Shown here piece by piece: positions 6,301 through 21,300 of a stretch of DNA of 64,000 nt. The stretch is taken from contig CM073886.1 of assembly GCA_037176705.1 (NCBI GenBank), forward strand, positions 90,679,501 through 90,743,500, in the 5' to 3' direction. The notes below the pieces were generated by a model. It saw only the letters and a list, made by a program, of their open reading frames with translations, searched no databases and had not been told where the DNA came from. The stretch's first letter is position 1. Each line of letters starts with the position of its first letter. Source of the stretch: Molossus alvarezi (Eukaryota; Chordata; Mammalia; Chiroptera; Molossidae). A program made the translations under genes and the position numbers.

Positions 6301-9300
6301 CAGTATATTCTTTACTTTTTTTTTTTTTTTTTTTTTTGGTACATTCCCCTAGCAGGAACCAAACCCAGGACGCTCTGGTCTGCAGGCCAATGCTCCAACC
6401 GCTGAGCCAAACCAGCCAGGGCCCTTCTAGTATATTCTTAATTTCAGTTATTATATTCCTTATTTCTTACTGGTTCTTTTTTATGTTTTCTCTGTTTTTA
6501 TGTTTCCTGTCTTTTTGTTGAAGTTCTCACTGAGTTGATCTATTCTTCCCCTAAATTTGTTGAGCATCCTTATAACCATTGTTTTGAACTTTGTATCTGG
6601 TAGATTGCTTGTCTCCATTTTGTGTAGTTCTTTTCTGGAGTTTTGTCCTATTCTTTCATTTGGGACCTGATTCTTTGTCTTATCATTGTGGCTGCTTTCC
6701 TGTGTTTGTTTCTATGTATTAGGTAGAGCTGCTATATCTCCCGGGCTTGGCAGCATGGCCTTAAGTAGTAGGTGTCCTATAGAGCCCAGTGGTATAGCCT
6801 CCCCATCACCTGAGCGGAGCACTCCAGGTGTGCCCTCTGTATGGACTGTGTGTACCCTCTTGTTGTTGTTGAGCCTTGATTACTGTTAGCATGTCAGTGG
6901 GAGGGATTGAGCCCCCTGGGCTGATGGGCTGCGAGGACTAGCATGACTACAGCAGGGAAGCTGCTCTTCGAGGGCCCACCCCACAGAACAGAACTTGCTG
7001 CAGTGGGGCTCTGGTGTTCACCAAGTCCTCCCCTTGAGTGTGTTGCTTGTGGAGGGGTTGGGCATTGCTCCGGCTTGGTCTGAAGCTGTCCACTTAGTAC
7101 ACTGACTCTGGGGCCTCCTGAGAGGGTCAGGCCAAGGTGAGCCACTGCCTGTGCCCTGACTAGGGTCACCTGGCATGAGCTCCAAAGTAATCTACCAGTG
7201 GTTGCCAACTGTGCTGGGCTTGGAATTGCCCAGGAGAGGCCAAGCTGTGAACTGAGGCCAGCTGTCGCTAGTGCTGGGCTTGGGACTGCTTACAAAGAGG
7301 TACAGGACGTGCTGTGGACAGATGCTGCTTGTTTGGGATTTGTGGAACTTAGATTTTAGGAAAGTCTGCAGCATGAACCAAGACAGGCCATTTAAATGGA
7401 AATGCCACTGGAAGCAGCTTGGATGGGTCCAAAAGTTAGTTGGGTTGGGGCTCAGAGAATTACCAGAGCAGGGCAAAAAATGTTAGCCACATTGATGGAG
7501 ACTCAGATATGGTACTCACCTGCTAGCTCTATGGGGAGAGACTATGGTTTCTATCAGCGCTTCTTTCTGGGAAACAGCTGCCCCTCCACACCTCAACCTG
7601 AAGCCAGACAATTCAGTTCTTGCCATATGTCCCTGGTGTCTTTTGAGCTGTTGCCCCAGCGCTGGAGCTCAGAGCAATTGAGTTCAAGCGTGTCTGTGTT
7701 GTGCAGTCCCTTTAAGAGGACCACCTGGGACTTCAACAGCCCTCTGTCTCACTCAGCCACAATTCCCACTGGTTTTCACGGCCAGAAGTTATGAGGACTT
7801 CTCTTTCTAGCACTGGAGCCTTGGGCTAGAGATCCTGGTGTGGAGATGGGACCCCTCACTCCTCAGGGGGGACCTTCACAAGCCTAGATGTCTCTCTTGA
7901 GTTTTAACTGCCACACATGGGTGTAGGACCATCCAGTTCACAGTCTTCGCCTCTCCTACCAGTCTGGAAGTGGCTTCTATATGTTCTTAGTGATAGGACT
8001 TCTGTTCAGCTAGACTTCAGATGGTTCTCAGTGATGCTTGTTCTGTAATGTAGTTGTAATTCTGATGTACTATCTTGACCCTGAACAGAATATTTTAAAA
8101 GATGTAAATTTTGAACTCAATTTGTATATCAGATCTATTGCTAATATTAGCGTTTAATATGTAAACCTTACTCTTACACTTAATTTTCAGTTAATTAAAC
8201 TCTTTGTAATAAAAGCAAAAATGTTAAATATAGCTAAAAATCATACACATACATTCTTTTCAAAACATAACATAAATGTCAATAAAGACATAGTTTCAAA
8301 GTGTGAGTCCATTAGGTCAAAGTGTAGGAGAGAAGATAGAAGCAAACAGAAATTTTAACAAGGTTGTAGAGCATGGGAAGAGATAATTATCTGTATGTCT
8401 AGGATCAGAAGTAGGGTTGAAAAGAGATATCATCTGCCCTACAGAATTAAAGAAAGACTTGGGATATGAAGCAACCTAAATTCACCAATGAAAAGGCAAA
8501 GAGTAGCAGATTGGATCAGATAACGAAACCCAACCATATGCTGCCTTCAGGAAACACACTGAGCTGCAAAGACAAATAGAGACTCAAAATGAAAGTGTAG
8601 AAAATAATTCTCCAAGGAAATGGCATCTACAGAAAAGCAGGTTCAGCCATACTTAATCTGACAAAATAGATTTCAAGATAAAACAGGTAACAAGAGACAA
8701 AGATGGACATTTTATAATGGTAAAGGGGACAGTACCTCAAGAAGAAATAACATTTCTAAATAGATATGCACCCAATCAGAGAGCAGTGAAATATATAAAG
8801 CAACTACTAACAGAAGTAAAGGGAGAAACTGACAATAACACAATCATAATATGGGACCTAAATACTCCACTGATAGCTCTAGATAGATCATTCAAACGGA
8901 AAATCAATAAAGAAATATCTATCTTAATGGACACATTAGATCAAAGGCACATAATTGACATTTACAGAGCCTTTTATCCCAGAACATCAGATTATATATT
9001 CTTCTCTAGTGTTCATAGAACATTCTCAAGGATAGACTATATGTTGTAACTTAAAACTAGCCACAACAGCCCTGGCTGGTTTGGCTCAGCGGTTGGAGCA
9101 TTGGCCCGCAGACCAAAGAATCACAGGTTTGAGTCCATTCAAGGGCATGTACCTCAGTTGCGGGTCAGTCCCCAGCCCTGGTTGGGGTCATGTGGGAGGC
9201 AACCAATCAATGTGTCTCTCATCAATGTTTCTCTCTTTCTCTCTCTCTCTCTCCCTCCCTCCCTCTCCCCCTCCCCCCCAATCTGTCTGAAAATAAATGG

Positions 9301-18300: not shown

Positions 18301-21300
18301 CCTTTTCATTATTGGTATTTAATTCCATTGTTAGTCATATTTAAAGTAATATCAAGCCTGGCCGGTGTGGCTCAGTTGATTGAGCATCGTCCGATCGACT
18401 GAGAGGTCCTGGTTCGATTCCTGGTCAGGGCACATGCCCAGGTTGCAGGATCAATCCCCAGTTGCAGGCGTGCATTGAGGCTACCAATCGATGTTTCTCT
18501 TTCATGTTGATGTGTTTCTATCTTTCTCTCCCTCTCTAAAAAAATTTTAAAAATCAATTTAAAAATTTTTCAAAGTAATATCAATATGGTTGCTTTGACA
18601 TGTATGTACTTGATCTTTCATTTCTAGTTGTCCAGCTTTTCTGTTCCTGCTTTCCTCTTTTCCCACTGTCTTGGATTAGGTGTGGATATTAAAAAATAAA
18701 TTCATTATATTTGTTATATCTCTTTATTTTTGTGTATAATTGCTCTAGGTCTTGTAATATACATTTTTATATTATCATTGATGTACATTTAGAAAAAAAC
18801 TAATGGTAGCTCTTGACATCAGGAGAATTAAACACTAACTGATTGTCTTAGAAACAAAGGGATCCTAGAAAAGGTCCAGAATCTATTGCAGTTTCCTCAA
18901 ATACCTCAAGCATACATGCCTTAGGGCCTTTGTACTTAAAATTCTCTGTCTCTGGAACATTCTTTTGCTACATAGAGACATGATTTATATCTTGTCTTCT
19001 TTTTCTACTGCTAAAATGTTAACATGATCAGAGAGGTCTTTCCATATCATACTACCTCTCATGCATATCATACCTGTTCCTCCTTTCTGTATCCTTAGAT
19101 TTTTTTTTTTTTTTTTTTGCCCATGTAACTTATCACTCGCTGGAATAATATGTTTGTCTGGATTCCCCTCTTTGTCCTGTTCATCTTTGTATCCCTGACT
19201 CCCTTCAACAATGCCTTGTAGTCAGTGACTGATTAATAAATACTTGTTGAATTAATGATATTCATTTGTGTCTGTTTTTGTATAGTCTCCTTAGAAAAGA
19301 CACCTAATATACCTGATTATTGAAAACTCACCATTAAATTGCCTGTCAATATGAAATTAAAATGTATTGCTCAAAAACCACGTCTTATATTTTTTAACAA
19401 TGGAATATTACAGAGAACTTAGCACCTGCCCTATATTTCTGTTTCAAAGGCTTTCTGCTCAGCTTTTTTGTTGTTAATTTCTGAATATAAATTTTAGAAT
19501 TATATATAAGTTTTATTATCATTCAGAAATATAATTATTTATAGGATTAAAGACTAAGCAATGAATATGAATTATTTGTTCCAGTTCCAAAAATTGAGAC
19601 ATGATCTTGAATTGGTACTCTCTACTATTCAGTCAAGGAATGAAAAGTTAAAGGAAGACTTGGAAAGGTATGTTTATATTATAATTACTATTAGTCATTG
19701 ATGTGTGAATTGGCATTAATGTTTTATTTTGCTACTGTTTGTTTTGCTTTCCTGTTCTGAAAGGGAGCAACAATGGTTGGATGAACAGCAAAAGATATTC
19801 GGATCCCTTATTGTACTACACGATGAATTGAAACAACAGATTGTGACAGTTTCTGAATCAAGGTATTATTTTTGTGTTCTAGTTTTTTAAACTAGGAGAA
19901 AGTAGTTTCTTTTTTTTATGAGAAATACATGAAAGAAGGTAAACTTTACCAAAAAATTGTGAGTCTTATCCTAGCTTTGCCATCTATTAGTTACATGATC
20001 TTGTATGAATGACTTGACTACTAGTTTCCCTATGTATTAAATAGAGAATATTATTTTCATAAAACTAGTTATATTTGTTTTGAACAAATGAAATTTGAAC
20101 ATAGTTCTTAATCAACCTTATGAGTAACCAGTTGCATACACTTACGTATTTTATCAGTGAGATCTAATTTTTTTAAAAAATCTATTAGAATCTTTAATGT
20201 GCTGAAATCTTGATCCGTGTGGCTCAGTTGGTTGAGCATCGTCCTATGCACTGGCAGGTTTCTGGTTCAATTCCCTGTCAGGGCAAATGCCCAGGTTACA
20301 GGTTCAGTACATAGTCGGGTGCATATGGGAGGCAACTGACTGATGTTTTTCTCTCACATTGATGTTTCTTTCTCTCTCTCTCTCCCCTTCCTCTCTCTCT
20401 ATAATTCAATGAAAATATATATATATTTTTTAAAAAAAGAGTCTTTAATGAGCTGAAAACTAAACTACGTGATATAAAAGACTATAAGGAGAAACTATTG
20501 ATTACCTTGAGTGAGTTTCTAGAAGACCACTTTCCTTTGCCTGAAAGAAATGTTAAAAAGAAAAAGGTAAGTTTCAAAGAAGATATTCGTTTAGATTTAC
20601 ATGTATGAAATTATTTCAGGTAGGATCAAATATAAATTTTCTGATAAATTTTAAATGTTATACATTTGAAAGTTATACACACATAGATACATGTAGAGAA
20701 ATTGTACCTCATCATATTAAACTATTGAAAAATTAGAAGCAAACTTGTTGTTCAATAATATAGGAGGAGTTAAATACAGTTTTTGATATTGTATCCATAT
20801 GATGAGGAAAATGCAGCTTTTAAAAAAATGTATTGAGCCTGGCCGGTGTAGCTCAGTGGTTGAGTGTCGACCCATACACCAAGAGGTCACCAGTTCGATT
20901 CCTGGTCAGGGCACATGCCCAGGTTGTGGACCCAATGCCCGGAGAGGGGCATGTAGGAGGCGGCCAATTGATGTTCTTTCTCATCGATGTTTCTATCTGT
21001 CTCTCCTTCTCCCTTTCTCCCTCTCTCCCTAAAATTAATAAAGAAAAAAAATGTACTGAACATTTTGCAATACATTTGAAAAGAAGTTAATGAAATGCTC
21101 ATAGTTTATTGTTAAATGGATAAAATATAGATTACATTGTGTAAGTATAATTTATACCAAAAGATGTAATATTGCTTATGTCTAGGGGCTAGGATTATAG
21201 GAAAGATTTGTTTTCATTTTTACTGTTTTTCATGTTTTCCATGAACATATGTAACTTTCAAAATCAGAAGAATTGTTGTTTAAAATCTGTTAATGTAAGT

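Follow-up and report, generated by a model that had tools for sequence, protein, structure and literature searches.

CENPK and the start of its exon 8

The gene at this locus is CENPK, which is read from the plus strand. Of its nine coding exons, two lie beyond the window (by which we mean the whole 64-kb stretch of DNA that was analysed), and the gene was assembled with 10 kb of upstream sequence. The exons were found by tblastn to human CENP-K and assembly of open reading frames; their numbers are our own coding numbering. AG precedes and GT follows the exon at all eight internal junctions. The coding sequence comprises 816 bases, 271 codons plus the stop, and 219 of 268 aligned residues (82%) are identical with human CENP-K. 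Exon 8 starts with SESRVFNELK, the human counterpart being SESRIFNELK. Around its start the following features are found:

19764..19862, plus strand: CENPK coding exon 7 (exon d), donor AAG/GTATTA
20187..20207, plus strand: 5' copy of a target-site duplication (TSD), AG and 19 former coding bases; bears a GAG to GTG change
20208..20437, plus strand (sense): Ves SINE, head to A-tail; its 5' end is diverged and uncertain by some 4-9 bases
20211..20213, plus strand: in-frame TGA reached via the original AG (translation of the site-1 isoform)
20438..20458, plus strand: 3' copy of the TSD, presumed new acceptor AG (20438-20439) and the exon's first 19 bases; bears an ATC to GTC change
20440..20566, plus strand: CENPK coding exon 8 (exon e), as the full-length protein requires, donor AAG/GTAAGT

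The two copies, AGAATCTTTAATGTGCTGAAA at 20187-20207 and AGAGTCTTTAATGAGCTGAAA at 20438-20458, form a direct repeat with 19 of 21 bases identical. The duplicated bases are an AG and 19 coding bases of exon 8. No further site with at least 16 of 21 matches to the first copy was found on either strand of the 64-kb window, and 16/21 was also the best chance match in 300 single-base shuffles of 1200 nt each. A preliminary description of this DNA had already seen a 21-base repeat with two mismatches around a complete Ves SINE, and this is indeed what lies there.

The Ves SINE and its relatives

The element between the two copies is a Ves SINE; it was named from the consensus of the family and from the descriptions in excerpts of PMC4436864 and PMC8466645. 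It has a tRNA-like head, a TC-motif and an A-rich tail, and it belongs to a family of dispersed copies: a search of the genome with the SINE yielded 39 matches elsewhere at 76-83% identity, apart from the locus itself (40 scored of 6518 candidates). The alignments of its relatives start at 20215-20217 in six of the seven best hits and at 20220 in the remaining one; the multiple alignment extends further into the head.

For a survey of the family, 274 kb of the same genome were used, i.e., the window and 21 stretches of 10 kb (L017-L037). They contain 114 Ves copies or fragments, 67 of which are full-length by the survey criterion. Another of these full-length copies in sense orientation lies at 20841-21047 of the window, about 275 bases downstream of exon 8, and has its own 15-bp TSD with one mismatch. 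Three copies (9074-9272 of the window, L020:6375-6576 and L017:4075-4268) carry GAGGAT or GGTGAGGAT ahead of the A run and in this resemble the tail of Ves_c, as depicted in excerpts of PMC8466645, whereas the tail of the CENPK copy reads TATTTTTT. The differing tails imply that several subfamilies are mixed in this genome.

Which AG keeps the reading frame

Splicing to the original AG (20187-20188) would give the frame RIFNVLKS, which ends after these 8 residues at the TGA. The 42 AGs starting at 19863-20559 were tested one by one; a 43rd makes up the last two bases of exon 8. Three of the 42 keep the frame and stay open. Two of the three lie inside the exon; only 20438-20439 delivers the whole of exon 8 in frame. 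Full-length CENPK therefore needs the duplicated AG, and the preliminary view that the second AG precedes the open frame is supported by the assembled reading frame as well as by the AG-by-AG test. An acceptor AG that sits in a TSD directly before a coding exon is also the structural hallmark of the TSD-preserved acceptor of the merle type (see below).

From the second AG, exon 8 measures 127 nt, from the first 378 nt. The intron was lengthened by 251 bp and none was gained. The locus is, accordingly, no introner, and the CENPK retrocopy described below, which is probably older than the SINE, joins the exons at the same point.

Splice signals at the old and the new acceptor

The signals that could serve the two sites are the following:

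20164..20188, plus strand: original 3' splice site with a CTAAT resembling a branch point (20164-20168, A at -22), T7 and AG at 20187-20188; leads to a stop
20332..20437, plus strand: 106 nt without AG, up to the duplicated acceptor
20336..20340, plus strand: CTGAC resembling a branch point, its A being 20339 (-101), and a CTGAT that overlaps it, its A being 20343 (-97)
20365..20400, plus strand: uninterrupted 36-nt pyrimidine run (Ves TC-motif), candidate polypyrimidine tract
20424..20431, plus strand: TATTTTTT, similar to the terminator for pol III in Ves tails, with a T-run at -9 to -14 relative to the new acceptor

The first AG after the SINE's CTGAC, pyrimidine run and T-run is the duplicated one. 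At 106 nt its AG-free stretch exceeds those of the seven other CENPK acceptors (24-67 nt) and that of the original site (25 nt); for random positions in the window the median is 25, and 7.3% reach at least 80 nt. Such a stretch is at least 60 nt long in 61, and at least 80 nt in 38, of the 67 full-length Ves copies. Only seven of the 67, however, combine a long AG-free stretch with an early CTRAY motif, and the branch-point part is thus not a rule of the family. The consensus of the seven nearest copies reads CTGAT, the C of CTGAC being a change in the CENPK copy. Branch points as far away as about -100 are uncommon. Both the TC-motif and the TAT(T)n terminator, the commonest of Ves, are known parts of these elements that function in RNA polyadenylation and pol III termination (PMC8466645, excerpts).

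Acceptors were scored with a position matrix, which gives -9.8 for the first and -7.2 for the second site; these values are equalled or exceeded by 75% and 58%, respectively, of the 3984 AGs in the window. The second acceptor, locally weak by its score, has A at -3 to -8, and the pyrimidine run ends 38 nt before its AG. Scores of 1.6 to 3.5 are reached by three AGs within the SINE, but each of them leads to a stop. Among the other CENPK acceptors that of exon 3 is also weak (-5.4), so that a weak score does not exclude use; the remaining six range from 0.1 to 5.6. From the frame and its conservation we infer that the second AG is the main acceptor. The SINE may also supply its branch point and polypyrimidine tract.

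Of course, both acceptors could be used. The first would then give rise to a transcript bound for NMD, with its stop near the start of the SINE, and the old site would thereby lower or regulate the output of CENPK in this bat. The first acceptor keeps its CTAAT at -22, T7 and AG and may still compete; its product stops at 20211-20213, upstream of the later junctions, and the new acceptor is locally weak. Yet the score of the first acceptor is even lower (-9.8 versus -7.2), and exon 8 would have 378 nt instead of 127 nt. The longer exon is less favourable for exon definition. That the two acceptors share the splicing, with the SINE-containing product lost to NMD, has to be taken seriously as a rival, although it is the less likely view.

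It may also be that the duplicated AG suffices. The pyrimidine run and the CTGAC would then be incidental and the branch point would lie elsewhere, e.g., in the AT-rich tail. The small number of Ves copies with early CTRAY motifs (7/67) fits such a view, and the T6 at -9 to -14 could act as a short tract. At intron 14 of human NF1, however, the exon was not rescued by the AG in the TSD downstream of a sense Alu, according to our own reading of Table 2 in the excerpts of PMC3219598, and we are sceptical that the AG does its work unaided.

A third possibility, that exon 8 is mostly skipped or CENPK is decaying and its open frame a relic, is very improbable. The sense AluY at the NF1 intron 14 acceptor does cause exon skipping (PMC3219598, excerpts). 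Since 127 is not a multiple of three, however, skipping would shift the frame, and the nine coding exons with their junctions are intact after an old insertion. Moreover, the search of the genome with CENPK (150 of 6443 candidates scored) listed 17 matches. Leaving aside the exons of the gene itself and weak matches, these comprise just five retrocopies, and all five contain internal stops.

Origin of the repeat

The first copy is preceded by TATT, which points to a nick at TATT/AGAATC (TT/AGAA), a site of the L1-endonuclease type. The TT/AAAA-like nick, the TSD and an A-tail set against the 3' copy (the A run at 20432-20437 adjoins it) are those of an L1-mediated insertion by target-primed reverse transcription (TPRT), the 21 bp being slightly long when measured by the usual criterion of about 7-20 bp. 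A TSD was recovered in 43 of the 66 full-length Ves copies with enough flank, the 67th having too little. By our count from the list, the first base is A in 39 of these 43, and TT precedes 18 of them, so the TSD of the CENPK copy is of the ordinary Ves type; two, the CENPK copy included, begin with AG.

That the two copies stem from an older or independent small duplication, or from an artefact of assembly, is almost certainly wrong: two mismatches in 21 bases, the low-complexity tail and the diverged 5' end of the SINE, which makes its exact contact with the first copy uncertain, could be adduced in its favour, but the copies flank both ends of a full-length SINE, match the usual TSD type of a family in which 43 of 66 testable copies have one, start at a TT/A site and have each acquired one change of their own since the duplication, unlike a recent duplicate made by an assembly error. 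A pre-existing duplication was rejected on these grounds.

Ancestral states and age

A further view of the junction comes from a CENPK retrocopy. Its five copies with internal stops lie on the same strand within about 40 kb (G000:C62:13341573-13381415; L009, L010, L011, L013 and L014). Four of them are 93.6-95.1% identical to L009 over the aligned parts; the cluster is a locally amplified old processed pseudogene and was counted as one witness, i.e., one event. Because it is only 66-70% identical to the gene over the main alignments, it is probably older than the SINE, and it would then record the junction as it was before the insertion. A younger retrocopy that might record splicing after the insertion had to be dismissed as a source, since the five old ones are the only retrocopies among the 17 matches listed.

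The retrocopy crosses the junction of exons 7 and 8 without a gap. Together with the position of the TSD on the intron end, this agrees with the preliminary description, which had taken the first AG for the ancestral intron end. At both mismatch positions A is found in all five copies. The coding copy has GTC (V) where the human protein has I, and the abandoned copy has GTG where it has E. The ancestral I and the change from GAG to GTG, both proposed beforehand, are thus backed by the human protein and the retrocopy alike. The simplest reading is that both substitutions postdate the duplication, one in each copy, and the independent drift that had been suggested would be just this. Replacement of A by G in the coding copy (I to V) has, in addition, produced two AGs in tandem (AGAG) at 20438-20441, and splicing to the second of these would shift the frame.

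As to age, the SINE differs from the consensus of its seven best genome matches at 15 of 156 sites, which corresponds to about 41 My at the rate of 2.366e-9 used by Ray et al. (PMC4436864, excerpts). K2P distances without CpG sites, taken to the consensus of the nearest 8, 12, 20 and 30 copies in a tree of 74, amount to 0.138, 0.168, 0.216 and 0.219, equivalent to 58, 71, 91 and 93 My. A consensus of nearest copies is pulled in the direction of the query, and a wide one blends several subfamilies; the choice of the consensus therefore biases the age and makes it only a rough one. A whole-family consensus was discarded for dating, as several subfamilies are mixed and the divergence outside CpG sites is 24%. 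The insertion is old, nominally some 40-60 My with narrow consensuses and up to 93 My with wider ones, and we would expect distant relatives of this bat to have the SINE as well. CENPK is intact despite this age, and the arrangement has thus endured.

A proposed course of events

The best explanation as a whole, to which we assign a probability of roughly 0.87, is that a Ves insertion hit the acceptor of CENPK exon 8 and that the TSD re-supplied it. The SINE would have been inserted by L1-type target-primed reverse transcription at a TATT/AGAATC nick that happened to coincide with the AG of the 3' splice site. The 21-bp TSD would have copied this AG and the first 19 exon bases to the far side of the SINE, and everything from the old intron end through the first copy to the last base of the SINE would have become intron. 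Splicing most likely moved to the second AG (20438-20439), which leaves the length of the protein unchanged. The SINE may contribute a branch point (CTGAC, A20339) and a polypyrimidine tract, with the duplicated AG as the first one downstream. The TC-motif and the terminator of Ves would thereby take on a second role, as the pyrimidine tract for an AG that the TSD provides.

The preliminary description had credited the TSD with the preservation of the exon. The TSD itself, the position of the AG and the frame speak for this claim. It is probably incomplete, though: an NF1 Alu of apparently identical geometry leads to skipping of the exon. The TSD may therefore be insufficient by itself, and what the SINE supplies upstream may matter as much.

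One might go further and speculate that sense Ves insertions at TT/AG intron ends are a recurring route of self-healing. The L1 nick motif would coincide in part with 3' splice sites, the TSD would restore the AG together with the start of the exon, and the TC-motif, the terminator T-run and the long AG-free stretch at the 3' end of Ves would provide a ready upstream half of the acceptor. We consider such generality unlikely. If true, Ves-rich bat genomes would hold many exon starts with acceptors run by SINEs, some of them keeping the old acceptor as a poison site.

Comparison with known systems

No report of the CENPK locus, or of an acceptor rescued by Ves and its TSD, was seen among the open-licence papers listed. 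A TSD-duplicated acceptor at an exon start is a rare but already known kind of event, of which the CENPK Ves is a clear natural example. By analogy, its closest precedent is canine merle. There, a SINEC_Cf has been inserted at the boundary of intron 10 and exon 11 of PMEL, and its 15-bp TSD includes the original acceptor; the polypyrimidine tract is provided by SINE sequence and, with short tails, the original site is spliced and normal protein is made (PMC7349775, excerpts). The two cases share a tRNA-derived SINE at an intron/exon boundary with the acceptor inside the TSD. The merle SINE, however, is in reverse orientation and offers a poly(T) tract, whereas Ves in CENPK is in sense and takes its candidate tract from the TC-motif. 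Also, merle segregates, has an unstable tail length and a phenotype, while the CENPK insertion is old and the gene intact.

Alu in sense orientation is not known to carry a pyrimidine tract ahead of its A-tail. The human AluY at NF1 intron 14 (patient UAB-R10408) is such a sense element, inserted at the acceptor via the L1 endonuclease (PMC3219598, excerpts). By our reading of Table 2 therein, its 11-bp TSD has the AG of the intron as its last two bases, so that an AG still precedes the exon, as with Ves in CENPK. The outcome in NF1 is exon skipping and disease; in CENPK the gene is intact, and the exon appears to be used. Set against the NF1 Alu, the CENPK locus suggests that harm or neutrality may depend on what the 3' end of a SINE contains, beyond the target duplication.

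More distant are elements that are spliced out themselves. Introners may recruit a splice site from their TSD, and most seem to be of DNA type with TSDs of 3-9 bp (PMC9860276, excerpts). They create whole new introns, whereas in CENPK an existing one became 251 bp longer. In the intronization of SINEs or Alus, an exonic element becomes spliced out, and alternative introns arise in 3' UTRs; an intron of rice catalase born from a SINE is cited in the same work (PMC2394776, excerpts). In contrast to the Alu cases in 3' UTRs, the CENPK insertion lies at the boundary of a coding exon and its acceptor was copied by the TSD. If the second AG is indeed used, CENPK would be a long-lived natural case of a retroposon that landed on a coding splice acceptor and left the protein intact.
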